From Streptomyces sp. NBC_00224 (GTDB lineage: Bacteria; Actinomycetota; Actinomycetes; Streptomycetales; Streptomycetaceae): 64,000 nt of DNA. Shown here piece after piece: positions 18,992 to 34,728 of this stretch. A model generated the notes under the pieces. The model was not told the DNA's origin. It did no database searches and saw only the letters and a list, made by a program, of their open reading frames with translations. Both the position numbers and the translations under genes were made by a program. The DNA is taken from NCBI RefSeq assembly GCF_041435195.1, contig NZ_CP108107.1, positions 156,251 through 220,250 of the forward strand, written 5' to 3'. Numbering within the stretch: position 1 is the first letter of the stretch; every line of letters starts with the position of its first letter.

Positions 18992-19996
18992 TCAGAGCCC
19001 GTAGCGCTCGGGTTTCGGGGTGCGGGACATCAGCAACTCAGCGGCTTGCGCGGCGGTGAGCTGCCCGTTGATGACGCCAACGACGACCTCAGTGATGGGC
19101 ATCTCCACGCCGTGCCTTTGGGCCAAGGAGAGAAGCGCTGTGGACGACTTGACGCCCTCGGCGGTCTGGGTGGTGGCCGCGGTTGCCTGTGCGAGACTCA
19201 GGCCTTCGCCCAGATACCGACCGAAGGTCCGGTTGCGGGAGAGCGGCGAAGAGCAGGTCGCGATCAGGTCGCCCACCCCAGCCAGTCCGGAGAACGAGAT
19301 CGGGTCGGCGCCGAGTACCGCGCCGAGCCGGGCGGTCTCCGCAAGTCCCCGGGTCATCAGCACGGCGGTCGCGTTGTCGCCGAGGCCCAGCCCACCTGCC
19401 AGGCCGACGGCCAGGGCAATGACGTTCTTGACCGCGCCGCCGAGCTCGCAGCCCACGATGTCCGTGTTGGTGTACGGGCGGAAGTACGAGGTGAGGAACG
19501 CGCCTTGTAGCCGCTCGGCCACCATGTGGTCGGGGCAGGCGATGACGGAGGCGGCAGGCCGACGGGCGGCGACCTCCCGGGCCAGGTTCGGTCCGGAGAG
19601 CACCGCGACGCGTTCGGCGGGTAGGCCTGCCACCTGGCGGATCACCTGCGACATGCGCAGGCCGCTGTCGGTCTCGATGCCCTTCATCAGGCTGACCACG
19701 ATGGTGGACGGGCCGATCAGGGGCGCCCATGCGGCGAGGTTGGCGCGAAGGGTCTGCGCGGGAATCGACACCACCGCGATGTCGGCTCCGGCGAGCGCCT
19801 GGGCGGGGTCCGTGGTCGCGCGCAGCGAGGCGGGCAGGTCGATGTCGGGCAGGTAGTCGGGGTTCACGTGGCGGGTGTTGATCGCGTCGGCGATCTCGCT
19901 GCGGCGGGCATGGACGGTGACGTCGGTGCTGGCGTCGGCGAGTACGGCCGCGACCGTTGTGCCCCACGAACCGGCTGAAAGGACCGCCGCCTTCAT
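18992..19996 (-). CDS. gpsA: GpsA-like NAD(P)H-dependent glycerol-3-phosphate dehydrogenase in a RiPP-like operon
   Basis: A 334-residue enzyme of normal GpsA length. The Rossmann loop is SAGSWGTTVAAVLAD, with Ser replacing the first Gly of the usual GAGSWGT. The family blocks SLMKGIE, LSGPNLAREVA, VGCELGGAVKNVIALAVG and LAGVGDLIATCSSPLSRNR are all intact, including the catalytic Lys in GAVKN. It starts 36 bp after the methyltransferase stop on the same strand, so it is the last gene of the operon with YcaO and TfuA. Streptomyces also need a chromosomal gpsA for lipids, so this copy may be specialised, for example supplying or reducing a small substrate for a peptide modification (inference). 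Confidence 0.85.
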   Translation of the reverse strand: MKAAVLSAGSWGTTVAAVLADASTDVTVHARRSEIADAINTRHVNPDYLPDIDLPASLRATTDPAQALAGADIAVVSIPAQTLRANLAAWAPLIGPSTIVVSLMKGIETDSGLRMSQVIRQVAGLPAERVAVLSGPNLAREVAARRPAASVIACPDHMVAERLQGAFLTSYFRPYTNTDIVGCELGGAVKNVIALAVGLAGGLGLGDNATAVLMTRGLAETARLGAVLGADPISFSGLAGVGDLIATCSSPLSRNRTFGRYLGEGLSLAQATAATTQTAEGVKSSTALLSLAQRHGVEMPITEVVVGVINGQLTAAQAAELLMSRTPKPERYGL

Positions 19997-20032
19997 CGTC
20001 TTCGTCTTCCTCTCGTCGGTGACGTACGGAGC

Positions 20033-20815
20033 CTATAGACCCGCGGGTCCCTGAGGCTGCGGGCGGCGCAGGGTCAGCGTCAGAGCCCGGCGGCCTGCGA
20101 GGCGGTCAAGCATGCGGTGCGCCTCGCCGAGCATGTTCTGGGCTTGCGTGTCGCCCAGCTCGCGGCGCAGCTCGTCTGCGTGCGCGATCCACAGCCGGTA
20201 CAGGCGGGCCCACATGGCAGGCTCGCCGGGCCTCTCGTCCACGTACTCGACGGTGAAGCCCGCGGCCTGCTCCTGCTCGGTGACGGTGGTGGTGTCGCGG
20301 CGTACGGCGCGGGTGAGGACGGCGCGGCCGCCGGGCTTGAGGATCCGGTGCATCTCCCGCAGAGCCGCCGCGCGGTCCGCGGCGCAGCTGAGGGCGTCCA
20401 CGCAGATCACCCCGTCCGCCTGGGCGTCGGGCAAGCCGGACGCCTCCAGCGTTCCCACGGCGAAGGCCGCCTGGCCCGGGGGGACGAAGGTGCATCTGCG
20501 GGTGGTGGCGAGCTGGATGGCGACCGGGGAGAGGTCGATGCCGATCAACCGCACGGCCAGGGCGCGAGCGAGCCACAGGCCTACCCCGCCGCTCCCGCAC
20601 CCCATGTCCACGAGGAGTTGGCCGGGCCCCAGACGCAGGCGGCCCACGAGCGTGGCGAGCAGCCGCCAGTCGCACGAGCTGTCCGCGGCGACTTCGGTGG
20701 CGTAGGCGTCTCCCATGGCCTCGGCGTACAGCGCGGCCACCAGGCAGGTGCGGGACCGTGCGCGGTGGAAAGCGTCGAAGCCCGCCCGGAGGTGGTGCTC
20801 GGTGGTGCTGTTCAC
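20033..20815 (-). CDS. class I SAM-dependent methyltransferase of the RiPP-like operon
   Basis: A 260-residue methyltransferase. Motif I is VDMGCGSGGVGLWLAR near residue 70, then LIGIDLSPVAIQLA (motif II acidic residue), DGVICVDALSCAADR (motif IV) and LREMHRILKPGGRAVLT (motif V/VI), as in ubiE/COQ5-like enzymes. The GTG start overlaps the YcaO stop codon (GTGA at 20812-20815), a sign of translational coupling. A role in N-, O- or S-methylation of the YcaO/TfuA-modified peptide is inference. Confidence 0.85.
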   Translation of the reverse strand: MNSTTEHHLRAGFDAFHRARSRTCLVAALYAEAMGDAYATEVAADSSCDWRLLATLVGRLRLGPGQLLVDMGCGSGGVGLWLARALAVRLIGIDLSPVAIQLATTRRCTFVPPGQAAFAVGTLEASGLPDAQADGVICVDALSCAADRAAALREMHRILKPGGRAVLTRAVRRDTTTVTEQEQAAGFTVEYVDERPGEPAMWARLYRLWIAHADELRRELGDTQAQNMLGEAHRMLDRLAGRRALTLTLRRPQPQGPAGL

Positions 20816-21966
20816 CGGGGCACCGCCTTGCGGATTCTGGAGCGTGCGCCGGGACAGATGACCTTGACGGCGGCTACCCGGTCGTCGGCAGCGGACAAGA
20901 TCAGGCGGATGGGTTCGTGCCCGGTGACCTGGTGGATGCGGCGGGCGACGCGGGCGCTCTGCTTGGGGAAGGAGGCGGCGAACCGCAGAGGCGCGGCGTC
21001 GGCCGCCCACGCTGGCCACGGCATGTGCGGCCCTGGGGAGGAGGTGAAGCGGGGCGGGCCGGTGGTGGCGTCGTGGTGGGAGGGCAGGTCGTCGCGGGTC
21101 CCGGCGATGGAGGTGAGGCGGGACTGCACGGCCTCGGTGATGGCACGGGAGAGCGCGATGTGCGGAGTCCCGTGGCATCCGCTCCCGGCGAAGACAGCCG
21201 CCGGGTAGTCCTCGCACCACACGAACGCCAGGCACACCGGGACGGCGTAAGCGTTGTCCACGGCCGCGATTTCGACCGCCACGCCTGCTTGCCGGAGTCG
21301 GTCGAGGAGCGTGCGACAGTACGGATCGTCGACCGAAGCGGGGTCGATCAGCTGACGGTGGGTGCCGCCTTTGATCTCATCGGCGAACAGGGCGTCGCGC
21401 TCGACGACTTCGTACAGGGCGTGCAGCAGTGCTTCGGGGCGGGTGGTGCCGCAGGCCAGGCCGGTGCTGGTGGCGCGGAACAGGTCCGGCTCCCACAGCG
21501 GCCGGCACCCGTGGCGGCGCACCAAACCCAGGGGCACCGGCACCTGGCGCCCGCTGATCAGTCCGGTGCCGTACATCCACTCCAGCTGCACCTTCTCCGC
21601 GCCAGTCAGGGCCTCGCCGCTCACCTTCACCGGCAGGGCCGCCAGCGGGTAGGGCAGGTCGATGTCGGCGGCGGCCGCCCGCAACTCGACTGTCCGGGGC
21701 TGCTCGACGTGCCATAGCTCGATGGCTTCCATCACGGCGGAGGTCTTCGCCAGCAGGTCGGTGGCGCCCTTGCCCTGGGTGGCGACCAGGGTTTTGGCGG
21801 CGGGGCGGATCGCCGTCCACACCGGCAGACCCAGATGGTCGAGGCCGGTCAGCCGGGCGACGCGGGTGATCCCGTAGCGTCGCAGCAGGGGCTTTAAGAC
21901 CGCCCACGTCTCCTCCGGGCTTCGCGCCCGTACCGTCCCGTCCAGCGTCAGCACGTCATCGGGCAT
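20812..21966 (-). CDS. YcaO-domain protein (peptide backbone cyclodehydratase/thioamide-forming)
   Basis: A 384-residue YcaO enzyme. The ATP-binding signatures are visible: KTSAVMEAIELW (SxxxE-type, near residue 78), HALYEVVERDAL (ExxxE) and TEAVQSRLTSIAGTRDD (ExxQ and the RDD tail). YcaO proteins phosphorylate the peptide amide oxygen; partnered with TfuA, they are known to introduce backbone thioamides (methanogen McrA, thioviridamide-type peptides). There is no fused E1-like or ocin-ThiF domain, which supports the TfuA-dependent type. It overlaps the TfuA gene by 11 bp upstream and the methyltransferase by 4 bp downstream. Confidence 0.88.
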   Translation of the reverse strand: MPDDVLTLDGTVRARSPEETWAVLKPLLRRYGITRVARLTGLDHLGLPVWTAIRPAAKTLVATQGKGATDLLAKTSAVMEAIELWHVEQPRTVELRAAAADIDLPYPLAALPVKVSGEALTGAEKVQLEWMYGTGLISGRQVPVPLGLVRRHGCRPLWEPDLFRATSTGLACGTTRPEALLHALYEVVERDALFADEIKGGTHRQLIDPASVDDPYCRTLLDRLRQAGVAVEIAAVDNAYAVPVCLAFVWCEDYPAAVFAGSGCHGTPHIALSRAITEAVQSRLTSIAGTRDDLPSHHDATTGPPRFTSSPGPHMPWPAWAADAAPLRFAASFPKQSARVARRIHQVTGHEPIRLILSAADDRVAAVKVICPGARSRIRKAVPR

Positions 21967-23206
21967 CGGTCAGCTTCCTTGTCTGCTCCTGGTCGTGGAC
22001 GAGCCCGGCCATGAAGACCTTCAGCTCCTCGGTCGCATGCGCGCTGCTCCGGAATCCCCGAGAGGCCGCCGCCTCCTCCAGACGGGCGGGCGCTATGTCC
22101 CACAGGCGCAGCAGCACCCGGCGCGTCGTGTCCTCGTCCACGGCCTGCGGACAGAACCCGGCTTGGGCACGGCGGGCGGTGTCGTTGCACGCCGTATACC
22201 GGGTGATGGCTGCCCGGTCGGCGGCCGTCTCCCGCTCCAGCAGGCGCGCCACCGTCCCGCTGTCACGCAGGTCCGGCTGAGGGCGGAAGAGGACATGCGC
22301 GGGCGGGGCGCCCTCAGGTGCCACGCTCCGGATCCGCTCCGCCAGTGGCATCCCCCGCGTCCCGTCACCGGGGTGGCGGGAGAGGTGGTCCAAGAAGCCG
22401 GACCACACCTGTGGGAAGACGGGATCGAACAGCTGCTGGTAGGCCACGCGCTGAGCGGTGTGAAGGAGCACGCCGTCGACGTTCTGCGTGGCGAATGCGT
22501 TGCCCCACCGCCGGAAGTAGCCGCTCTCCCCCGCCCCCGTCGTCGAGCGCCAGAGCGGCAGCGGGCCGGCCAGCGCCACCTGGACGGCTTCGAGCGCGTC
22601 GTCGCGCTTGACGTCGGCGAAGAACGGATCCGCGGCCTTGTGTTCTTCGAGCCAGGCCGCCAGCGTTCGCGCGCCGCGTCTGCGGCAGACGGCCAGGACC
22701 GCGGCGACCGTGCGCTGCGGGTAGTAGACCGCCCGCGCAGCCTCCAACAGCGCGGCTGCGGCCTCGCGCGTCACCACCCTCTCACCGACGGCGAGCCTGA
22801 AGGCCTGACGGACGTTCACCAGTGGCCAGGTCAGCGCCCGCAGATCACCGTCCGGTGCCTGGCCGACCGCCACCTCGTCGTCCCCGTCGATCTCTCCTCG
22901 CCGGTAGGCGCGGAAGACGCGGCCCACTCCGGTCATCCCGAACCGGTGGAGCTCGGCCGCGCGCAGCGCCCCCACGGACGCGGCCCCGATCACGCGGACG
23001 CCCCGGTCGAGCAGGCCCACGAGTTCCTTGTGGCGTACGGCGGGGGCCTGGTGCCAGGCCCCGTCGATGACCACCACCGTGTCTTCGCTGACGATCGCCG
23101 GGTCGAACAGGTCCCCGTGGCGCACCGGCTGCAACACCCGGATGCGGGGCGTGGCCAGGACCGGCTCCGCGCGGCCCAGGGTCGGGCCGACGTACACGTG
23201 GATCAC
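21956..23206 (-). CDS. TfuA-like protein, partner of YcaO, with a long C-terminal extension
   Basis: A 416-residue protein. The first ~130 residues match the TfuA family: VYVGPTL, VVVIDGAWHQAPAVRHKE, then VIGAASVGALRAAELHRFGM and RAYRRGEIDGDDEVAV. TfuA proteins help YcaO enzymes make thioamides, probably by delivering sulphur. The family core is about 200 residues, so the remaining 200-250 residues are an extension, largely helical and rich in Arg/Ala, of unknown role. GTG 23206 is chosen because the TfuA homology begins at the next residues (IHVYVG); the much longer open frame upstream crosses the precursor gene and is not coding. It lies downstream of a hairpin that separates it from the precursor gene. 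Confidence 0.85.
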   Translation of the reverse strand: MIHVYVGPTLGRAEPVLATPRIRVLQPVRHGDLFDPAIVSEDTVVVIDGAWHQAPAVRHKELVGLLDRGVRVIGAASVGALRAAELHRFGMTGVGRVFRAYRRGEIDGDDEVAVGQAPDGDLRALTWPLVNVRQAFRLAVGERVVTREAAAALLEAARAVYYPQRTVAAVLAVCRRRGARTLAAWLEEHKAADPFFADVKRDDALEAVQVALAGPLPLWRSTTGAGESGYFRRWGNAFATQNVDGVLLHTAQRVAYQQLFDPVFPQVWSGFLDHLSRHPGDGTRGMPLAERIRSVAPEGAPPAHVLFRPQPDLRDSGTVARLLERETAADRAAITRYTACNDTARRAQAGFCPQAVDEDTTRRVLLRLWDIAPARLEEAAASRGFRSSAHATEELKVFMAGLVHDQEQTRKLTDAR

Positions 23207-23231
23207 CGTGCAGCACCACCTTCGAAACGGG

Positions 23232-23270
23232 CCTGCGGTGCCGGAGGGACCTCGTCTCCGGCACCGCAGG
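23232..23270 (-). terminator. hairpin between precursor and modification genes (attenuator-like)
   Basis: CCTGCGGTGCCGGAG and CTCCGGCACCGCAGG form a perfect 15-bp stem with a 9-base loop, with no T-tract. It starts 14 bp after the precursor stop and ends 26 bp before the TfuA start. Partial terminators or 3' stabilisers at this position are common in RiPP operons because they allow more precursor than enzyme. Confidence 0.7.
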
Positions 23271-23283
23271 GCCGATGGGAGGG

Positions 23284-23412
23284 TCAGGGACCCTCGTCCT
23301 CCACGTCCTCGATGCGCACCACGCCCGACAGCGCAACGATCGAGATGACGCCGCCCGGCGCGTCCACCACGACGGGCCCCTGCAGGGCTTGTTCGGACTT
23401 GGACTGCTCCAT
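23284..23412 (-). CDS. putative RiPP precursor peptide, 42 residues
   Basis: Start ATG 23412 with a very strong ribosome site (GAGAGGAGG). The 42-residue product begins MEQSKSEQALQGPVVVDAPG and continues GVISIVALSGVVRIEDVED before EGP. It has a short polar leader-like N-terminus, a Val/Ile-rich centre with alternating hydrophobic pattern and an acidic C-terminus. There is no Cys, only two internal Ser in the body and no Thr, so heterocycles of the thiazole type are unlikely, which fits thioamidation instead. It lies directly upstream of TfuA and YcaO and is bracketed by hairpins on both sides. The cleavage site cannot be seen; the two Gly of APGG are a plausible leader boundary (inference). 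Confidence 0.7.
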   Translation of the reverse strand: MEQSKSEQALQGPVVVDAPGGVISIVALSGVVRIEDVEDEGP

Positions 23413-23427
23413 GGATTCCTCCTCTCG

Positions 23428-23456
23428 TAGGGCGCGGACCGGATGCCCGCGCCCTA
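23428..23456 (-). promoter_or_regulatory. hairpin in the leader of the precursor gene
   Basis: TAGGGCGCGG and CCGCGCCCTA, a perfect 10-bp inverted repeat with a 9-base loop, ends only a few bases before the ribosome site of the precursor. It could stabilise the mRNA 5' end or act as an operator. Confidence 0.5.
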
Positions 23457-26745: not shown

Positions 26746-27747
26746 TCAGTGGCCGGACCCGGCCCGGCCGGTGCCGGAGCCGGTGGCTGTCCGACGGATC
26801 GCGTCGAGCAGCGAGGCCTGGTCCAGCACCGGATCGTCGGACGGTGCGCCGCCCTCGCGCACCGCACGCGCGAAGGCGCTGACCGCCGCGGCCACCTGGT
26901 CCTCGGGCGCGAGGGCGATCTCCTCGGTGCGGGTGCCGCGCTCCAGACGCAGTACGGGCCGGTGGTCGGCGGGGGGTGTGAAGGCACGGTCCACCGTGAT
27001 CCGGCCCTCGGAGCCGCGCAGTTCGTACCCCGAATGGTAGGCGTGCCCGATCCCGAACGTCAGATGGGCGACGGCGCCCGCCTCACTCCGCAGGAGCGCG
27101 GCCCCCGAGGTATCGACCTCGCGGCCGGGGTCGGACATGAGGACCGCCCCGGCGACCGTGAGAGGGGAGCCGAGCAGGTACAGAGCCGCCCGCACCGGAT
27201 AGACGCCGACGTCCCACAACGCGCCGCCGCCGAGCGCCGCCCGGTAGCGGATGTCGTGCTCGGGCCGGGCCGGGACGGCGAACGAGGCTTGCAGCGAGCG
27301 TGTCTGACCGATCGCGCCGTCGCGGACCAGCGCGCGCACCGCGGCGTGCTGTCCGTGGTGCACGAACAGCACGTTCTCCACGAGGGCCAGACCGCGGGCC
27401 GACGCGAGCCGCAGGAGCTCGGCCGTACGCACCTGGCTGGTGGTCAGCGGCTTTTCCGCCAGTACGTGTTTACCGGCGCGCAGAGCCGCCTCCACCCAGA
27501 CGTCGTGGAGCGCGGCGGGCAGCGGCACGTACACGGCGTCGACATCGTCGCGTGCCAGCAACGCGTCGTATCCGTGCACGGCCGCGCACCCGAAGCGCCG
27601 CGCCGTCTCGTTCGCCTTGTGGGCGTCCCGGCTGGCGACGGCGATCAGCTCCACGTCCGCCGAGGCGGCCATGGCGGGGAGCATCCGGCGCAGCGCGATG
27701 TCCGCGCAGCCGAGGACGGCGACCCGTACGCGGGACGTCACGGGCAT
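26746..27747 (-). CDS. NDP-hexose 3-ketoreductase (Gfo/Idh/MocA family)
   Basis: A 333-residue oxidoreductase. The Rossmann motif is VAVLGCADIALRRMLPAM near residue 8, followed by VPLPAALHDVWVEAALRAG and the signature AEKPLTTS with the catalytic Lys, as in EVxxxK of the family. The length and motifs match dTDP-3,4-diketo-2,6-dideoxyhexose 3-ketoreductases (UrdT/LanT/SpnN-type), which act after the 2,3-dehydratase encoded at 32427-33824. It follows the 3-dehydratase gene by 37 bp in the same operon. The product should be a dTDP-4-keto-2,6-dideoxyhexose. Confidence 0.85.
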   Translation of the reverse strand: MPVTSRVRVAVLGCADIALRRMLPAMAASADVELIAVASRDAHKANETARRFGCAAVHGYDALLARDDVDAVYVPLPAALHDVWVEAALRAGKHVLAEKPLTTSQVRTAELLRLASARGLALVENVLFVHHGQHAAVRALVRDGAIGQTRSLQASFAVPARPEHDIRYRAALGGGALWDVGVYPVRAALYLLGSPLTVAGAVLMSDPGREVDTSGAALLRSEAGAVAHLTFGIGHAYHSGYELRGSEGRITVDRAFTPPADHRPVLRLERGTRTEEIALAPEDQVAAAVSAFARAVREGGAPSDDPVLDQASLLDAIRRTATGSGTGRAGSGH

Positions 27748-27784
27748 GCGCGCCTGCCTTCGTGGAGCGGGGAACGGCCGGCCA

Positions 27785-29089
27785 TCAGCCGCGACTCGCG
27801 ATGAACTCCTTCACCGTGGAGACGACGTAGTCGATCATCTCGTCGGTGATGGCGGGGTAGACGCCGATCCAGAAGGTCTGGTCGGTGATGATGTCGCTGT
27901 TCGTCAGGTCACCGACGACGCGGTGCCGCTGGTCCTGGTAGGCCGGGTGGCGGGTCAGGTTGCCGGCGAACAGACGCCGCGTGCCGATCTTGCGCTCCTC
28001 CAGGTGGTCGACGAACTCGGCGCGGCTGAACGGCGCTTCGCGGTCGACGGTGATCGCGAAGCCGAACCAGCTCGGGTCGCTGCGGTCGGTGGCCTCGGGC
28101 AGCAGCAGGTGCGGGACGCCGTCGAGGCCCTCGCGCAGACGGCGCCAGTTGTGCCGGCGCGCGTCGCAGAAGTCGTCCAGCTTGGCCAGCTGCGTCAGGC
28201 CCAGCGCCGCCTGGATGTCGGTCGCCTTCAGGTTGTAACCGACGTGGGAGAAGATGTACTTGTGGTCGTAGCCCTCCGGCAGGCTGCCCATCTGGTACTT
28301 GAAGCGCTTGAGGCACTTGTCGTTCTCGCCCGGCTCGCACCAGCAGTCGCGGCCCCAGTCGCGCAGCGACTCCACGATCCGGGCCAGCGCCAGGTTCGAG
28401 GTGAGGACGCAGCCGCCCTCGCCCATCGTGAGGTGGTGCGCGGGATAGAAGCTGACCGTGGTCATGTCGCCGAAGGTGCCGGTCAGCTGGCCGTCGTACG
28501 TGGAGCCCACCGCGTCGCAGTTGTCCTCGATCAGGAACAGCCCCCGGTCGGCGGCCAGTTGGGCGATCTCGGCGACCTCGAAGGGGTTGCCGAGGGCGTG
28601 CGCGATGATGATGGCCCGGGTACGCGGGCCGATTGCCTGCTCCACCCGGGCGGCGGTGGTGTTGTACGTGCCGAGCTCGACGTCGACGAAGACGGGAGTG
28701 AGGCCGTTCTGCAGAATGGGGTTGACGGTGGTGGGAAACCCGGCGGCGACCGTGATGATCTCGTCGCCCGGCCGCAGCCGCTCGTCCTCCAGCACGTGCG
28801 AGGTCAGTGCGGACACCGCCAGCAGGTTCGCGGAGGACCCGGAGTTCGTCAGATGCGCCTTACGGCGCTTCATCTTGCGGGCGAAGGACGACTCGAACTT
28901 GCGGGAGCTGACGCCCGCGGCGATCCGCATCTCCAGCGCCGCCTCGACCAGCGCGACCCGGTCCTCCTCCTCCAGGACCGCGCCGGACGGCCAGATCTCG
29001 GTCACGCCGGGAACGAAGCCGCCCTGCGGCTGGGTGTCCTGGTGGAACTTGCGGACCTCGTCGAGCACGAGGTTCTTGTGAGCGCTCAC
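27785..29089 (-). CDS. dTDP-4-keto-2,6-dideoxyhexose 3-dehydratase (PLP, [2Fe-2S])
   Basis: A 434-residue member of the DegT/DnrJ/EryC1 fold. The active-site Lys of aminotransferases is replaced by His in FYPAHHLTMGEGG (H218/H219), the hallmark of C-3 dehydratases such as RfbH/E1, UrdQ and SpnQ. Cysteines in EDNCDAVG and RDCWCEPGENDKC fit the [2Fe-2S] ligand set. The enzyme removes the C-3 hydroxyl to give a 2,3,6-trideoxy-4-keto sugar with electrons from a reductase partner, which is not encoded nearby and may be a housekeeping ferredoxin system. GTG 29089 with AAAGGAC upstream is chosen. The 4-ketoreductase stop overlaps this start. Confidence 0.87.
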   Translation of the reverse strand: MSAHKNLVLDEVRKFHQDTQPQGGFVPGVTEIWPSGAVLEEEDRVALVEAALEMRIAAGVSSRKFESSFARKMKRRKAHLTNSGSSANLLAVSALTSHVLEDERLRPGDEIITVAAGFPTTVNPILQNGLTPVFVDVELGTYNTTAARVEQAIGPRTRAIIIAHALGNPFEVAEIAQLAADRGLFLIEDNCDAVGSTYDGQLTGTFGDMTTVSFYPAHHLTMGEGGCVLTSNLALARIVESLRDWGRDCWCEPGENDKCLKRFKYQMGSLPEGYDHKYIFSHVGYNLKATDIQAALGLTQLAKLDDFCDARRHNWRRLREGLDGVPHLLLPEATDRSDPSWFGFAITVDREAPFSRAEFVDHLEERKIGTRRLFAGNLTRHPAYQDQRHRVVGDLTNSDIITDQTFWIGVYPAITDEMIDYVVSTVKEFIASRG

Positions 29090-30096
29090 GTGCGCGTCCT
29101 TTCTTGCTCCGGCAGCCGGACGGCCGCGAGCAGATCTGTCAGTGATGTGTCCAGGTCCACGGCGGGCTGCCAGCCGAGAAGGCGCCGCGCCCGCGAGATG
29201 TCCAGCTGCTGCCATTCCAGGTCCGCGCGCAGTACGCGGGCGTCCTGGCCCGGCCCGGCCCGGCCGGGCACCGGCGGCGGCCGGTGCTCGGTCAGCCGCA
29301 CGGGCCGGTCCGCCAGGGATATGAGCCGTTCGACCAGCCGGCGTACGGGTACGGCCTCGCCCCGGGCGATGTTGATGACGCGGCCGGTGACCTCGCCGGC
29401 CGGGGCGGTCGCCGCGAGCACGGCGGCGGCCGCGACGTCCCGGACGTCCACGAAGTCGCGCTGAGCGCGCAGCGGCGCGAGCCGCAGCTCCGCCCGCTCG
29501 GCGCCGTCGTGGGCGGGCTCCGGTGCGGCGAGGCGGTGCGCGACCGTTCCCAGGAGGCTGTTGGCCGGCACGCCCGGTCCCGTGGCGTTGGCGACCCGCA
29601 GCACCACGGCGGCGAGCCCCCGCTCGCGGACGGTGTCCAGCACCGCCTCGGTGGCGGCGAGCTTGGTGCGCCCGTACACCGAGACGGGCGCGCACACGGC
29701 GTCCTCGGCGGTGCTGGTGCCCGGCTCGCTCGGCCCGTACTCGTGGGAGCTGCCCAGCTGGACGAGGCGGGCCGGGGTCGCCAGCGCCGCCGTCGCACGG
29801 GCGAGCCGCTCGGCGAAGCGGGCGTTGAGGGACCACATGCGGTCCTCCTCGGCCTGCCACACCACACCGGCCGCGTTCACGATCACCTGGGGTGCCACGT
29901 CGGCCAGCAGCGCCGCCACGTCCTGTGTCGGCGCACCGAGTTCGTGGTGCAGATGCACCAGGCCGTCGTCGCCGGGCCGCGTCCGGGACCGGCCGCGCGA
30001 GACGCAGACGACACGGTGCCCCGCGGCGCGGAACGCGGCACACAGATGCCCGCCCATGAATCCGGTGCCGCCCAGCACCAGGGCCGTGGGGGCCAT
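29086..30096 (-). CDS. NDP-4-keto-deoxyhexose reductase (extended SDR)
   Basis: A 336-residue NAD(P)-binding epimerase/reductase. It has GGTGFMGGH (residues 9-17), SRGR after strand 2 and a YGRTK motif giving the YxxxK catalytic pair, with SSHEYG upstream. Extended SDRs of this type reduce the C-4 keto group at the end of deoxysugar pathways (UrdR/LanR/OleU-like). Its ATG overlaps the rfbB stop (ATGA) and its own stop overlaps the next start, so it is tightly coupled in the operon. The stereochemistry at C-4 cannot be read from sequence here. Confidence 0.82.
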   Translation of the reverse strand: MAPTALVLGGTGFMGGHLCAAFRAAGHRVVCVSRGRSRTRPGDDGLVHLHHELGAPTQDVAALLADVAPQVIVNAAGVVWQAEEDRMWSLNARFAERLARATAALATPARLVQLGSSHEYGPSEPGTSTAEDAVCAPVSVYGRTKLAATEAVLDTVRERGLAAVVLRVANATGPGVPANSLLGTVAHRLAAPEPAHDGAERAELRLAPLRAQRDFVDVRDVAAAAVLAATAPAGEVTGRVINIARGEAVPVRRLVERLISLADRPVRLTEHRPPPVPGRAGPGQDARVLRADLEWQQLDISRARRLLGWQPAVDLDTSLTDLLAAVRLPEQERTRT

Positions 30097-31070
30097 CAGG
30101 GTCTGTTCCCCTTCAGCGGCTTCCACCAGGCGGGGTTGTCGCGGTACCAGGCGAAGGTGTCGGCGAGCCCCTGCTCGAAGGAGACGCGGGGGGCGTACCC
30201 CAGCTCTTCCCTGATCTTCGTGTCGTCCAGGGCGTAGCGCAGATCGTGGCCCAGGCGGTCGGCGACGCGACGGATCACGGAGCTGTCGGCGCCGCCCAGT
30301 TCCACCAGGCGCTCCGCGATCTCGCGGTTCGTCCGCTCGTTGCCGCCGCCCACGTTGTAGACCTCGCCGGCCGCCCCGTTCAGGAGCACCAGGCAGATGG
30401 CCCGGCAGTGGTCGTCGACGTGCAGCCACTCCCGGATGTTCAGGCCGTCGCCGTACAGCGGGAGCGGGATGCCCTCGATGAGGTTGGTGACGAACAGCGG
30501 GATGAGCTTCTCGGGGTGCTGGTACGGGCCGTAGTTGTTGGAGCAGCGGGTGATCGACAGATTGAGGCCGTGGGTGCGCCAGTAGGCCCGGGCGATCAGG
30601 TCGGAGGCGGCCTTGGAGGCGGCGTACGGGGAGTTGGGCAGCAGCGGTTCCTGCTCCGTCCAGGAGCCGGAGTCGATGGAGCCGTACACCTCGTCGGTGG
30701 AGACGTGCACGACCCGCTCCACGCCGGTGCGCCGGCACGCCTCGAAGACGTTCTGGCTGCCCTCCGCGTTGGTGCGGACGAACACGTTCGCGTCGTCGAT
30801 GGAGCGGTCCACGTGCGACTCGGCGGCGAAGTGCACCACCGCGTCGTGCCCGGGGAGCAGGTCAAGCAGCAGCGGAAGATCGAGGATGTCGCCCTGGACG
30901 AAGTCGAGGCGCGGGTCGGCGGCGGGCAGGTTGGCGCGGTTGCCGGCGTAGCTGAGCGAGTCGAGGACGGTGACCGCAGCGCCTTCGAGCCCGGGGTAGC
31001 CGTCTTCGAGCAGGGTGCGGACGAAGTGGGAACCGATGAAGCCGGCCCCACCGGTGACGAGCACTCTCAC
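30096..31070 (-). CDS. rfbB: dTDP-glucose 4,6-dehydratase
   Basis: A 324-residue extended SDR. It has GGAGFIGSHF (residues 7-16), FAAESHVDRSI, STDEVYGSID with the catalytic Asp-Glu pair, YAASKAASD giving YxxxK, and RCSNNYGPYQHPEKLIP. All of these are diagnostic of RfbB. It makes dTDP-4-keto-6-deoxyglucose, the common entry to deoxysugars. GTG 31070 has AAGGAG upstream. It is the first gene of a four-gene operon (rfbB, 4-ketoreductase, 3-dehydratase, 3-ketoreductase). Confidence 0.93.
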   Translation of the reverse strand: MRVLVTGGAGFIGSHFVRTLLEDGYPGLEGAAVTVLDSLSYAGNRANLPAADPRLDFVQGDILDLPLLLDLLPGHDAVVHFAAESHVDRSIDDANVFVRTNAEGSQNVFEACRRTGVERVVHVSTDEVYGSIDSGSWTEQEPLLPNSPYAASKAASDLIARAYWRTHGLNLSITRCSNNYGPYQHPEKLIPLFVTNLIEGIPLPLYGDGLNIREWLHVDDHCRAICLVLLNGAAGEVYNVGGGNERTNREIAERLVELGGADSSVIRRVADRLGHDLRYALDDTKIREELGYAPRVSFEQGLADTFAWYRDNPAWWKPLKGNRP

Positions 31071-31173
31071 CGCGTCTCCTTCTTCACGAGGGCACCTGTC
31101 CGGCACCGGGCTGCAGTCATCGTTGAGGTCTCCTCGTCGGGTTCGATCTGCGGAGGGACGAGCCGGGGGCTCA

Positions 31174-31208
31174 CCGGGGCGCGGCGGCTGTGCCGTGGCG
31201 CGCCCCGG
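31174..31208 (-). terminator. terminator after the glycosyltransferase gene
   Basis: CCGGGGCGCG and CGCGCCCCGG, a 10-bp stem with a 15-base loop, 10 bp past the glycosyltransferase stop. It separates the two deoxysugar operons. Confidence 0.55.
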
Positions 31209-31217
31209 CCGCCGGGT

Positions 31218-32369
31218 TCAGCGGACGGCGAGCTTCTCCAGGACGCTCGCCACCTCGGCCGGTGCGGGAAGCACGGCCATCTCGTGTGCGAGGACGCCCG
31301 CACGCTGCGTGTAGCGCGCATCGGACAGGAGCTCCCGGCAGCCCGCCAGGATCGCCTCGGTGGAGTCCTGTTCCGCGCTCGCAACGGTGAGGCCGGCGCC
31401 GAAGTCCGTCAGGGCCTTCGCGACGATCTCCATGTAGGAGGCCTCGGGGGTGATGAGCTGCGGCACCCCGGCGTTCATGGCGGTCATGGCCGTGACGCCG
31501 CCACCGTGGTGGACCAGCAGGTCGCACGTCGGCACCACGACGTCCAGCGGGAGCCAGCCAATGCGGGTGTCGCCCAGCTCCGGGGCGAACTTCTCGGTGA
31601 CCTGCTCGGGCGCCGCGATCAGCACCTCGGCCCCGGTCCGGCCCAACTCCTCCACCAGACGCCGCATCTCCTCGGCGGACTGGAAGGCGAGGGCGCGGGT
31701 GCCCGTGGTGATCACCACGCGCTTGCGGTCCTGGGGACGGGTGTACATCCACGGCTCCAGGCGGCGCTGGCTGTTGCCGGGGAGCCAGTGCATCGGCTGC
31801 GCCCCGTCGGCGTGCGGCGACGGCAGGTGCGGCCGCAGCGAGGGCGGGCACACGTCGATGTGCAGGGCGGGCACCGGCAGCCCGGCGAGGCCCAGGCGCT
31901 CCAGCTCGGGCCTCAGCTCGTCCTCGGCCCCGGGGTCGGCCTCGGTGGTCGGGACCACGTCCCAGTCCTGGCGTACGTAGGGGACGCCGATCTCGGCGGC
32001 GAACAGCCCCGCGGCGTAGGTCATCGAGCCGCCGACGACGACATCGGGCCGCCAGTCCGCTCCGAGGCGGCGCAGGGTGTCCAGGCCGGCTATGCCCATC
32101 CTGGCGAAGGACCGGGCGGTGTGCAGCATGTTCTCCCGGTGTCCCTTGGGCGGGTCGACGGGCTTGCCGGCCCGGTCGAACCGCATGAAGTGGAAGACCG
32201 GCTCGGGGTTGAGCGAGACCGACGGCAGCCCGACGCTCGACGCGGTGTCGGTCAGCGGCTCGTTGGCGGCGAGGAGCACCTCGTGTCCGGCGTTGCGCAG
32301 GGCGGTTGCCAGCGGGACGACGGTGAAGACGGTCGCCGGGCTGCCGCCGGCGATGAACAGGAATTTCAT
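31218..32369 (-). CDS. macrolide/angucycline-type glycosyltransferase (GT1)
   Basis: A 383-residue GT-B enzyme. The N-terminal acceptor domain starts MKFLFIAGGSPATVFTVVPLA with a catalytic-type His-containing loop further on. The C-terminal nucleotide-binding domain has VVPTCDLLVHHGGGVTAM, the HHGGxGT-like sugar-donor motif, and GVPQLITPEASY. This matches antibiotic glycosyltransferases of the UrdGT/LanGT/EryCIII class. It presumably attaches the trideoxyhexose made by the flanking genes to an aromatic aglycone. It is the only glycosyltransferase in the window. The acceptor is unknown. Confidence 0.88.
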   Translation of the reverse strand: MKFLFIAGGSPATVFTVVPLATALRNAGHEVLLAANEPLTDTASSVGLPSVSLNPEPVFHFMRFDRAGKPVDPPKGHRENMLHTARSFARMGIAGLDTLRRLGADWRPDVVVGGSMTYAAGLFAAEIGVPYVRQDWDVVPTTEADPGAEDELRPELERLGLAGLPVPALHIDVCPPSLRPHLPSPHADGAQPMHWLPGNSQRRLEPWMYTRPQDRKRVVITTGTRALAFQSAEEMRRLVEELGRTGAEVLIAAPEQVTEKFAPELGDTRIGWLPLDVVVPTCDLLVHHGGGVTAMTAMNAGVPQLITPEASYMEIVAKALTDFGAGLTVASAEQDSTEAILAGCRELLSDARYTQRAGVLAHEMAVLPAPAEVASVLEKLAVR

Positions 32370-32426
32370 GGGGGTCAAAGGCTTCCGGTGAGAGGGCATG
32401 GGTGGCGTGCGTTCACGTGCGACGTG

Positions 32427-33824
32427 TCAGTCGGTGTGCTCCAGGCGCACCGCGCCCGTGCTGAGGCAGGACAGCAGCGTCCGGGCCTGGACGTTGACGT
32501 AGTGCCCGTGCGAGGTGAGCGCACTGAGCTGGTCCTGGGTGCACCACCGGAATCCGGGCGGGGCATCCAGTGGCGCCACGGCTTCGTCGGCCTCGACGAA
32601 CATGTAGCGGCTCTCCGCGTACAGGAAGCGCCCGCCCTCCTCGGAATGCACCGCCTCGTAGCGGACGCGTTCGGGGGAGGCACTGAGCACCTCCTCCAGG
32701 AAGGGGGGCCGCTCAGCGGGGTCCAGGTGGTCCCAGTTCCCCGGAGTGCACTGCACGGTGGGGCCGAGCTCGATGGTGTCCAGGAAGCCCGCCTCCGCGC
32801 GGGCCCGCACCAGCAGGTGCACGACGCCGTCGATGCGGCGGAAGAGGAAGGCCGCGACTCCCAGGCCGACGGGTTCGAACAATGGCTGCGACCAGGCCGG
32901 CACTTCGCGGCTGCCCGCCTGCACGGCGACCGCGACCACACGGAAGAACCGGCCGTCGGTCCGGGCGAGTGTGTCCTCGCCCCGCTCCCAGCCGTCGATG
33001 CCGGAGAGGGGGACGAGCCGGGTCACCACGTCCTGGCCCGAACGCTCGGTGGTGATCCAGGACTGGAACTCGGCGTCGGAGTGCAGCGCCCGTGGTTCGA
33101 CGTCCCCGGCGGGAAGGCAGGCGAGCACGGTCCGCGCGTCCATGTTGACCACGTTGTCCTGCCGCAGCAGCTGCCCGATCTGACCAAGCGTCAGCCAGCA
33201 GAAGTCGTCGTGCTCCGCCACGTCGCCGACGGCCTCGACGAGCATGTTGCGGTTGGCCTTGCGGTAGAACCACGAGCCGTGCTCCGACTGGCGCACGTCG
33301 TAGAGGATCCGGCCCCGGTCGGGCCGGGTGAAATGCTCCAGGTACCGCACCTGCGCGCCCTGGTGCACCCGCAGGTAGTTGCTCCGGGTCGCCTGCACGG
33401 TGGGCGACAGCTGGAGCAGATTGCGGTTGCCGGGTTCCAGCTTCGCCTGCATCAGGAAGTGCAGTACGCCGTCGAACTCCTTCACCACGATGCCCAGGAT
33501 CCCGGCCTCGGGCTGGTTGATCGTCGGCTGCTCCCAGCGGTGGAAGGGCCCCTCGGAACTGGTGACGGACAAACCCTCCACCGAGAAGAACCGGCCGCTG
33601 CGGTGCACCAGGTTTCCCGTGTCCTTCGCGAAGGACCATCCGTCCAACTCGGCGAACGGAATGCGCTCCACGGCGAAGTGATGGGCCTGTGTGCGCTTTT
33701 CGAGCCACTTGGCGACGTCTTCCGTGCGCAGGCTGTGCCCCGTGTCCCGCACGCTCGCCGACCTCGCCAGCCGCTCTCGCAGGTCGTGTTCCGTCCGCGG
33801 GCGAAGCCGCGTCGTCGCGTTCAT
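32427..33824 (-). CDS. NDP-hexose 2,3-dehydratase
   Basis: A 465-residue protein made of two homologous halves (about residues 20-230 and 240-460), each with a W-Q/S-P and GVLHFLMQAKLEPGN or GVVHLLVRARAEAGF core, exactly as in the EvaA/UrdS/TylX3 family. The enzyme removes the C-2 hydroxyl of dTDP-4-keto-6-deoxyglucose to give the 3,4-diketo intermediate, which the 3-ketoreductase at 26746-27747 then captures. It lies 34 bp after the rfbA stop, in the same operon. Confidence 0.9.
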   Translation of the reverse strand: MNATTRLRPRTEHDLRERLARSASVRDTGHSLRTEDVAKWLEKRTQAHHFAVERIPFAELDGWSFAKDTGNLVHRSGRFFSVEGLSVTSSEGPFHRWEQPTINQPEAGILGIVVKEFDGVLHFLMQAKLEPGNRNLLQLSPTVQATRSNYLRVHQGAQVRYLEHFTRPDRGRILYDVRQSEHGSWFYRKANRNMLVEAVGDVAEHDDFCWLTLGQIGQLLRQDNVVNMDARTVLACLPAGDVEPRALHSDAEFQSWITTERSGQDVVTRLVPLSGIDGWERGEDTLARTDGRFFRVVAVAVQAGSREVPAWSQPLFEPVGLGVAAFLFRRIDGVVHLLVRARAEAGFLDTIELGPTVQCTPGNWDHLDPAERPPFLEEVLSASPERVRYEAVHSEEGGRFLYAESRYMFVEADEAVAPLDAPPGFRWCTQDQLSALTSHGHYVNVQARTLLSCLSTGAVRLEHTD

Positions 33825-33858
33825 CCCGTGCCCTCCCCAGGTCCGGTGAACAGCGGCC

Positions 33859-34728
33859 TCATCCGGAGAGGGCCACTTCCATGACGTACTGGCCATAGGG
33901 CGACTTCGCCAGCCGGCTGCCGAGCCGGTAGCAGGCGTCGCGGTCGATGTACCCCATGCGCCAGGCGATTTCTTCGAGGCAGGCGATCCTCACGCCCTGC
34001 CGGTGCTCCAGGATCTGCACGTACTGCCCGGCTTCGGTCAGGGCGTCGTGGGTGCCCGTGTCCAGCCAGACGAAGCCGCGGCCGAGCGGTATCAGCGTGG
34101 CTTGGTCGCGCTCCAGGTAGGTGCGGTTGACATCGGTGATCTCCAGCTCGCCCCGCTCGGAAGGCCGCAGCCCCCGGGCGATGTCGACCACGTCGTTGTC
34201 GTACAGGTAGAGCCCGGTGATCGCCATGTTGGTGCGCGGCTGGGCGGGCTTCTCCTCGATCGAGATGAGCTTTCCCCGCTCGTCCACCTCGCCGACGCCG
34301 TAACGCTCCGGGTCGCGCACCGGGTAGCCGAAGAGGACGCAGCCCTCCACGTTCTGAACGGCCCGGTACAGCAGACTGCCGAACTTCGGGCCGTGGAAGA
34401 TGTTGTCACCGAGGACCAGGGCGACGGAGTCGTCGCCTATGTGGTCGGCGGAGACGAGGAACGCGTCCGCCAGACCACGGGGCTTGTCCTGCTCGGCATA
34501 GCTCAGCGAGATGCCGAGTTCGGATCCGTCTCCCAGCAGAGCCCGGAAGTTCTCGACATCGTGCGGCGCGGAAATGATTTGTATATCGGTGATTCCCGCG
34601 AGCATCAGCACCGAAAGCGGGTAGTAGATCATGGGCTTGTCGTAGACGGGGAGCAGTTGCTTGGAAACGCCGATCGTAATCGGATGCAGCCGTGTTCCGT
34701 GCCCACCGGCAAGGATTATCCCCTTCAT
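33859..34728 (-). CDS. rfbA: glucose-1-phosphate thymidylyltransferase
   Basis: A 289-residue nucleotidyltransferase. LAGGHGTRLHPIT at the N-terminus is the nucleotide-binding signature. KQLLPVYDKPMIYYPLS, GDNIFHGPKF and EEKPAQPRTN are the usual RmlA blocks. ATG 34728 (GGGGAG upstream) is preferred over a start 24 bp earlier. It makes dTDP-glucose for RfbB and is the first gene of the operon with the 2,3-dehydratase and glycosyltransferase. Confidence 0.93.
   Translation of the reverse strand: MKGIILAGGHGTRLHPITIGVSKQLLPVYDKPMIYYPLSVLMLAGITDIQIISAPHDVENFRALLGDGSELGISLSYAEQDKPRGLADAFLVSADHIGDDSVALVLGDNIFHGPKFGSLLYRAVQNVEGCVLFGYPVRDPERYGVGEVDERGKLISIEEKPAQPRTNMAITGLYLYDNDVVDIARGLRPSERGELEITDVNRTYLERDQATLIPLGRGFVWLDTGTHDALTEAGQYVQILEHRQGVRIACLEEIAWRMGYIDRDACYRLGSRLAKSPYGQYVMEVALSG

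Follow-up and report, generated by a model that had tools for sequence, protein, structure and literature searches.

Organization and plasmid location of the operon

A 64,000-nucleotide stretch of Streptomyces sp. NBC_00224 (contig NZ_CP108107.1, positions 156,251 to 220,250; referred to here as the window) was found to carry a compact operon of five genes, all on the minus strand, encoding a short precursor peptide, TfuA, YcaO, a methyltransferase, and the glycerol-3-phosphate dehydrogenase GpsA, in that order. The precursor gene (23284..23412) encodes 42 residues and starts with an ATG, and the ribosome-binding site AGGAGGA (23417..23423) was read off the sequence just upstream of it. TfuA (21956..23206; 416 residues, GTG start; PF07812, E 4.8e-43) and YcaO (20812..21966; 384 residues; PF02624, E 2.7e-56, and subfamily alignment) follow, and then a class I S-adenosylmethionine methyltransferase (20033..20815; 260 residues, GTG start; PF08241 and subfamily alignment). 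The last gene encodes the NAD(P)H-dependent GpsA (18992..19996; 334 residues; NF000942, E 1.8e-131), a putative self-resistant copy of the enzyme that the peptide would target. The original prediction, made from the sequence of the window without database searches, had described a 42-codon open reading frame (ORF) with a strong ribosome site and the same order of the other four genes; the coordinates agree with both, as well as with its overlaps of 11 bp between tfuA and ycaO and 4 bp between ycaO and the methyltransferase gene and its gap of 36 bp before gpsA.

The adjacent YcaO and TfuA genes both scored above the cut-offs of their Pfam models. Among the NCBIfam models, YcaO exceeded the cut-off of the general YcaO domain model TIGR00702 and GpsA that of a glycerol-3-phosphate dehydrogenase subfamily model, and YcaO and TfuA also matched models of McrA thioamidation, both below the respective cut-offs. 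The predicted structure of TfuA (mean predicted local distance difference test score 91.5) aligned over 218 columns with the solved structure of Methanosarcina TfuA (6xp8); it had no other match in the PDB at E 0.001, and its helical C-terminal part had no counterpart there. An extension of about 200 residues had been considered unusual in this TfuA, yet among related loci, 73 of the 75 TfuA ORFs measured have at least 366 residues. The long form is therefore the rule among these loci and not a special feature, the two short ORFs (255 and 260 residues) both being from Azospirillum.

The window is the right end of its 220,250-bp contig (C2). A linear plasmid of 220,216 bp from Streptomyces sp. 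NBC_00060 and a plasmid record of NBC_00150 each match the 4.6-kb operon region with 100.0% identity, and a plasmid record of NBC_00648 matches it with 99.3%. On the identical plasmid NZ_CP108254.1, the same five coding sequences are annotated, including that of 129 nt for the precursor (hypothetical protein WP_331723713.1). A plasmid collection contained 40 records with a GpsA match, of which 26 also hold a YcaO of the operon's subfamily, and all 26 of these hold both gpsA and the methyltransferase gene. Hence, the operon is often plasmid-borne.

A conserved operon family with three clades

Relatives of YcaO were collected from 394 Streptomycetaceae genomes, with at most four candidates scored per genome, and from a species collection, where the best 80 of 486 relatives were considered. 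The subfamily was delimited at a YcaO identity of about 52% or more, and a YcaO-TfuA tree of 27 members and four outgroups recovered it as one clade (support 100/100). The window, 12 loci from each search, and the removal of two duplicates (L104 = L035, L108 = L043) gave 23 distinct loci. The methyltransferase gene was found in 22 of them, and gpsA stood beside it in 19, the contig ending first in three others (L099, L101, and L102). For L102, which shares its contig with L283 of genome G416, gpsA and a methyltransferase tail were located on another small contig of that genome.

A comparison set of 96 further loci (L045-L072 and L110-L177) included 95 from other TfuA/YcaO subfamilies, and gpsA was found in none of these within flanks of about 9 kb (first group) or at most 6 kb (second group). 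The operon is a real conserved family, and the co-occurrence of the precursor and the GpsA-like gene in other genomes, which the original prediction had proposed to look for, was observed in 21 and 19 of the 23 distinct loci, respectively. One comparison locus, from S. violaceorubidus, has a methyltransferase of the same subfamily (L124:293-1042; 55%), placed divergently beside a different YcaO/TfuA pair. It is the only comparison locus with this methyltransferase, and no gpsA was found there before the contig start.

The YcaO-TfuA tree resolved a window clade, which includes L036, a V clade with VEDEE tails in its precursors, and a T2 clade with C[FY]TF tails, which is the sister of the other two. 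Downstream of gpsA, the V operons often encode a small membrane-anchored protein without a Pfam match (10 of the 21 loci examined) as well as an HTTM-like membrane protein (9 of 21). The membrane-anchored ORF comprises about 118 residues (L103:9102-10296 and relatives). The two proteins are possibly a processing or export pair; neither gene occurs in the window. Four V-clade proteins matched HTTM (PF05090) at E 3.8e-4 to 0.25, all under the Pfam gathering score. The HTTM-like protein was considered as a possible gamma-carboxylase of the acidic tail, an idea that was set aside, as the window lacks the gene and the match is below the cut-off.

Conservation of the precursor peptide

The translated precursor, MEQSKSEQALQGPVVVDAPGGVISIVALSGVVRIEDVEDEGP, contains no Cys and no Thr among its 42 residues, as had been read from the window before. 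Three relatives were identified among 5.8 billion proteins (E 7.5e-6, 3.2e-4, and 2.3e-3), and 21 of the 23 distinct loci have a related short ORF ahead of tfuA, which together argue that the ORF is not a chance one. The original prediction had staked its precursor on this very conservation, and it withstood the check. The ORF was not seen at L036 and at L100, where TfuA also lacks its start, and at L101 it is interrupted by the contig start.

An alignment of 22 precursors (18 from the loci, that of the window, and three from the protein database) revealed a conserved tail and a variable middle. V32 and D36 were invariant, while K5, S6, V37, E38, and E40 were nearly so. The tail reads VRIEDVEDEGP in the window clade, with VRIEDVEEEGGVA in L033. 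The second clade mostly has VV[VI]AVDV[ED]DEE, with LVLAEDVEQEW in L043, and the third has VV[RK]SED[VT]EQ[ED]EC[FY]TF. The near constancy of the tail, VVRIEDVEDEGP in the window (23287..23322, minus strand), suggests that it is the core, and the SKS motif (23395..23403, minus strand) may be the recognition part of the precursor. A neighboring TfuA/YcaO subfamily has short ORFs of its own (L045:11663-11773 and L046:15320-15436, both minus strand), which end in LIIADTEIRN and LVITDSEVRD, a similar hydrophobic run followed by an acidic end.

GpsA as an additional, complete enzyme

GpsA makes the backbone precursor of phospholipids. The window's genome also encodes a chromosomal GpsA, which is 64% identical to the operon copy, and at least two GpsA copies were present in all 11 operon-bearing genomes examined, versus one in each of the genomes G064, G265, and G336, which have no operon gpsA. 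A core enzyme is thus duplicated, with one copy in the operon and the normal copy elsewhere.

A tree built from 81 GpsA proteins grouped 20 operon copies with nine others that have no YcaO or TfuA nearby in a clade, named GpsA-2 (support 100/98). The catalytic residues reported for the human glycerol-3-phosphate dehydrogenase (GPDH) are K120, K204, N205, D260, T264, R269, and N270 (PMC12874384, consulted in part). Their counterparts in the operon GpsA are K105, K190, N191, D243, T247, R254, and N255, where the match of R269 and N270 rests on a shared RN motif, the human alignment being loose there. All seven were found in 29 of 29 GpsA-2 copies and in both T2 copies tested. Judged by these residues, the operon GpsA is predicted to be catalytically complete.

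GpsA is retained where the other operon genes are missing

A GpsA-2 profile identified 25 loci in the 394 genomes (E up to 3e-169), 10 with a subfamily YcaO and 15 without. The score gap of this profile to housekeeping copies was small; therefore, the weakest loci (G187 and G372) were assigned by their position inside the GpsA-2 clade, and second matches in G242 and G088 were left unclassified. Conversely, the 13 subfamily YcaO loci of these genomes included 10 with GpsA-2, two with the T2 GpsA, and one without any. The imbalance of 15 GpsA-2 loci without YcaO to one YcaO locus without GpsA gave p 5e-4 in a sign test that ignores phylogeny. The GpsA-only state was scattered over the GpsA-2 clade, with seven changes. 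A second sample of 150 genomes, which overlaps the first in part, included six with a subfamily YcaO, all of which had a second GpsA, and nine others with GpsA-2 and without that YcaO. Additionally, G221 had a T2-like copy and no operon, and G451 had a broken copy. Searching nine GpsA-only genomes again with a YcaO profile revealed no subfamily member; for the other 11 GpsA-only genomes, the absence of YcaO rests on the search of the 394 genomes and on the stretches examined.

The two samples gave 20 GpsA-only loci, of which about 19 kb each was examined (12-13 kb for L236 and L290). At all 20, the aligned gpsA had no stop and covered residues 2 to 323 or beyond, and at 13 a methyltransferase remnant, mostly the 3' end, lay just upstream of it. 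The two downstream V genes were undetected as well at 10 of the 14 V-type loci, which argues against gpsA simply being the last gene to remain. When these 20 loci were compared together with the T2 copy L295, none of the 21 showed a precursor tail within 6 kb, nor was a neighboring gene found that all have in common. Another shared type of cluster was thereby rejected, as families present in three or more loci came, besides gpsA, only from the syntenic L239, L243, and L244. L247 and L284 share three gene families, as expected from their operon remnants.

The ratio of nonsynonymous to synonymous substitution rates (dN/dS) between GpsA-only copies and operon or other GpsA-only copies was 0.16-0.42, compared with 0.10-0.20 for operon pairs and 0.09-0.14 for housekeeping pairs. 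L239 and L243, with a dN/dS of 0.22 at dS 0.24, share 11 gene families including gpsA and thus probably reflect one loss. GpsA therefore survives intact under purifying selection without the other operon genes.

The 14 plasmid records with a GpsA match and no subfamily YcaO include several that are chromosome-like or pieces; seven were examined. The gpsA of Micromonospora terminaliae plasmid pLB1 (L300, 25 kb) is housekeeping-like. Its record contains a segment duplicated in inverted orientation, each arm of which bears gpsA and a gene for a lysophospholipid acyltransferase; this arrangement may be an artefact of assembly. The other six, all from Streptomyces, have an open gpsA with the His29 and Ala80 described below. 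In L301, the annotated YcaO next to gpsA is not an intact gene; its 5' part is missing, and the rest is fused to a disrupted methyltransferase gene, representing a state of mid-decay. Of the remaining five, one has methyltransferase pieces, another has gpsA followed by genes sized like the two V-clade downstream genes, and three had no recognized operon remnants in the 3.5 kb examined.

Altered residues in the operon GpsA and the T2 lineage

While the catalytic residues are kept, GpsA-2 differs from the housekeeping copies at defined sites, whose link to resistance is putative. Residue 29 (codon at 19910..19912, minus strand) is His in 40 of 40 GpsA-2 copies. All 42 housekeeping copies have Trp there, as do 26 of 28 outgroup copies and all five T2 copies; of these five, four come from operons, and the fifth, L295, has no operon in its vicinity. 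Residue 80 (codon at 19757..19759, minus strand), usually Ser, is Ala in 39 of 40 GpsA-2 and all five T2 copies, compared with one of 42 housekeeping and two of 28 outgroup copies. Residue 79 is Thr or Ser in all five T2 copies, versus Pro in all 42 housekeeping and all 40 GpsA-2 copies. Residues 79-81 align with Pro-His-Gln and residue 29 with a Trp of the human GPDH, and we take both sites to lie near the cofactor. The SAG for GTG change in the nucleotide loop was discarded as a marker of operon copies, since 11 of 42 housekeeping copies also have the Ser.

The T2 GpsA was placed among the housekeeping GpsA proteins (support 99/97), and T2 gpsA seems, from this tree, to have been recruited separately into the operon subfamily.

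Neighboring genes in the window

The gene to the left of the operon had no Pfam match, nor was it significantly similar to the helix-turn-helix/tetratricopeptide repeat regulator of the relative L103, and a shared divergent regulator was thus rejected. A set of deoxysugar genes adjoins the operon (26746-33896, minus strand) and encodes a Gfo/Idh oxidoreductase, a DegT-family enzyme, an NDP-hexose 4,6-dehydratase-like protein, an EryCIII-like glycosyltransferase, and an NDP-hexose 2,3-dehydratase. These genes are not common to the operon's relatives, except that L033 has a gene related to the 4,6-dehydratase-like one nearby.

Comparison with known TfuA/YcaO systems

In thioviridamide-like thioamitides, the core is at the C terminus of the precursor, and its Cys and Ser/Thr are needed for the aminovinylcysteine ring. 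The window precursor has neither Cys nor Thr, and the operon further differs by its conserved acidic tail and by having no other modifying genes, while it similarly combines YcaO and TfuA with a precursor, judging from the portion consulted of the RiPPER survey (Santos-Aberturas et al., 2019; PMC6511847). In the same portion, the TfuA/YcaO clusters of Actinobacteria for ribosomally synthesized and post-translationally modified peptides (RiPPs) likewise have adjacent TfuA and YcaO genes and a short, mostly unannotated leading peptide. Its Network 2 groups 25 related peptides from Streptomyces, whose genes open a conserved operon, and the precursor family of the window may be this network. The main text of the survey does not name GpsA in such an operon. 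The thiovarsolins also have a small peptide with YcaO and TfuA, and the sections consulted describe repeats in their precursors, one non-repeating member, and, in some clusters, amidinotransferase and ATP-grasp genes (PMC6511847); neither such repeats nor such genes were seen in the window operon. In the std cluster of S. thermodiastaticus, the available part of the report describes a YcaO-TfuA pair acting on the conserved C-terminal motif SNKEWQE, with a thioamide on Asn shown in vitro (PMC13174530), which may be compared with the conserved tail of the window precursor. However, that cluster has its own motif and different partners, a multinuclear non-heme iron-dependent oxidative enzyme (MNIO) and a carbamoyltransferase, and no GpsA is described in that part.

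Target-directed genome mining for self-resistance by duplicated targets likewise looks for biosynthetic operons that carry an extra copy of a core enzyme whose normal copy lies elsewhere. The open-licence literature searched yielded no report of GpsA as a duplicated self-resistance target in a biosynthetic gene cluster, none of TfuA together with a glycerol-3-phosphate dehydrogenase, and, by titles and abstract starts, none of a natural GpsA inhibitor.

Competing explanations for the operon GpsA

The balance of the sequence comparisons tips toward the operon GpsA being a self-resistant copy of the peptide's target, with the peptide inhibiting GpsA. The gene behaves as an immunity gene would, since it is specific to one subfamily, duplicates a core enzyme, outlives its pathway under selection, and has changed recurrently at one site. 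An enzyme of the pathway should decay with it, and a passenger should not prefer one subfamily; therefore, neither is favored. Several observations weigh against self-resistance. L036 has YcaO and TfuA and neither the methyltransferase gene nor gpsA, and L071, the 96th comparison locus, has a fragment of the operon subfamily's YcaO without gpsA. The T2 copies keep Trp29, one GpsA-2 copy has Ser80, and Ala80 also occurs in the two outgroup copies and in one housekeeping lineage, namely L083 (G336, no operon) and its near-copy L089 (G217, with an operon), the latter excluded from the count of 42. A single origin of all operon GpsA proteins was only marginally rejected (approximately unbiased test p 0.046, with the group named after the tree was seen). 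Decayed gpsA copies were found at L298, whose genome (G256) has an intact operon at another place, and at L296 in G451, where no subfamily YcaO was found. The dN/dS values of the GpsA-only copies are somewhat above those of operon and housekeeping pairs, indicating a constraint that is present but weaker. A working GpsA paralogue could also be retained for the sake of ordinary metabolism.

The original prediction had counted GpsA as part of an unfamiliar pathway. As a biosynthetic step, it would make or use glycerol-3-phosphate or reduce a peptide carbonyl, giving a RiPP with a glycerophosphate-derived or reduced group. The constant place of gpsA after the methyltransferase gene, which in several loci it overlaps or follows by a few bases, is consistent with such a step, as is L036, which is without gpsA, precursor, and methyltransferase alike. 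It is nevertheless unlikely, because the complete GpsA is repeatedly intact where the other genes are gone, with an open gpsA under purifying selection at 20 loci without the subfamily YcaO, TfuA, and the precursor tail; moreover, the four-gene operon has no recognized glycerophosphate transferase, and the catalytic residues are those of an ordinary GPDH. The retained catalytic residues and the selection on gpsA-only copies would also suit a metabolic passenger that aids lipid or redox balance and is kept for its own usefulness. This appears still less probable, as gpsA is tied to one TfuA/YcaO subfamily (19 of 23 versus 0 of 95 loci, and 26 of 26 plasmids) and was apparently recruited into it twice, with residue 80 changed in both cases. 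Finally, the short ORF might not be a precursor at all, with YcaO and TfuA modifying a protein as in methanogen McrA, in line with their scores next to the McrA-thioamidation models, below the cut-offs. This is highly improbable, since 21 of 23 loci have the ORF as the first gene of the operon, its tail conserved and its middle variable, and none of the 21 gpsA-only loci was found to have it nearby.

Proposed role of the operon

With GpsA as a self-resistance copy, the operon would produce a ribosomal peptide. YcaO would use ATP to activate at least one backbone amide, for which the conserved C-terminal tail is the most likely site, TfuA would supply sulfide to form the thioamide, and the methyltransferase would add a methyl group, as expected from the enzyme families. 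The original prediction of a methylated, thioamidated RiPP thus stands as far as a RiPP operon with this precursor is concerned, from the conserved ORF and the gene order, while the two modifications are predicted from the families of the enzymes. Unlinked proteases would release the product, which would inhibit GpsA, and the operon GpsA would be a working, presumably insensitive copy that protects the producer, that is, self-resistance by target duplication. The operon would then act as an often plasmid-borne, bacteriocin-like system. The chances are about even that a family of acidic-tailed, thioamidated peptides inhibits GpsA, perhaps at its cofactor-binding loops, and that the insensitive GpsA is the immunity gene, which also persists alone.

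To our knowledge, cryptic TfuA/YcaO peptide families are many, and their targets mostly unknown. Here, the genes themselves point to a putative target of the peptide, GpsA, an enzyme of phospholipid synthesis. If true, the family would represent a class of natural products that act on the first step in making the phospholipid backbone, and the gpsA-only strains would be a natural resistance experiment.

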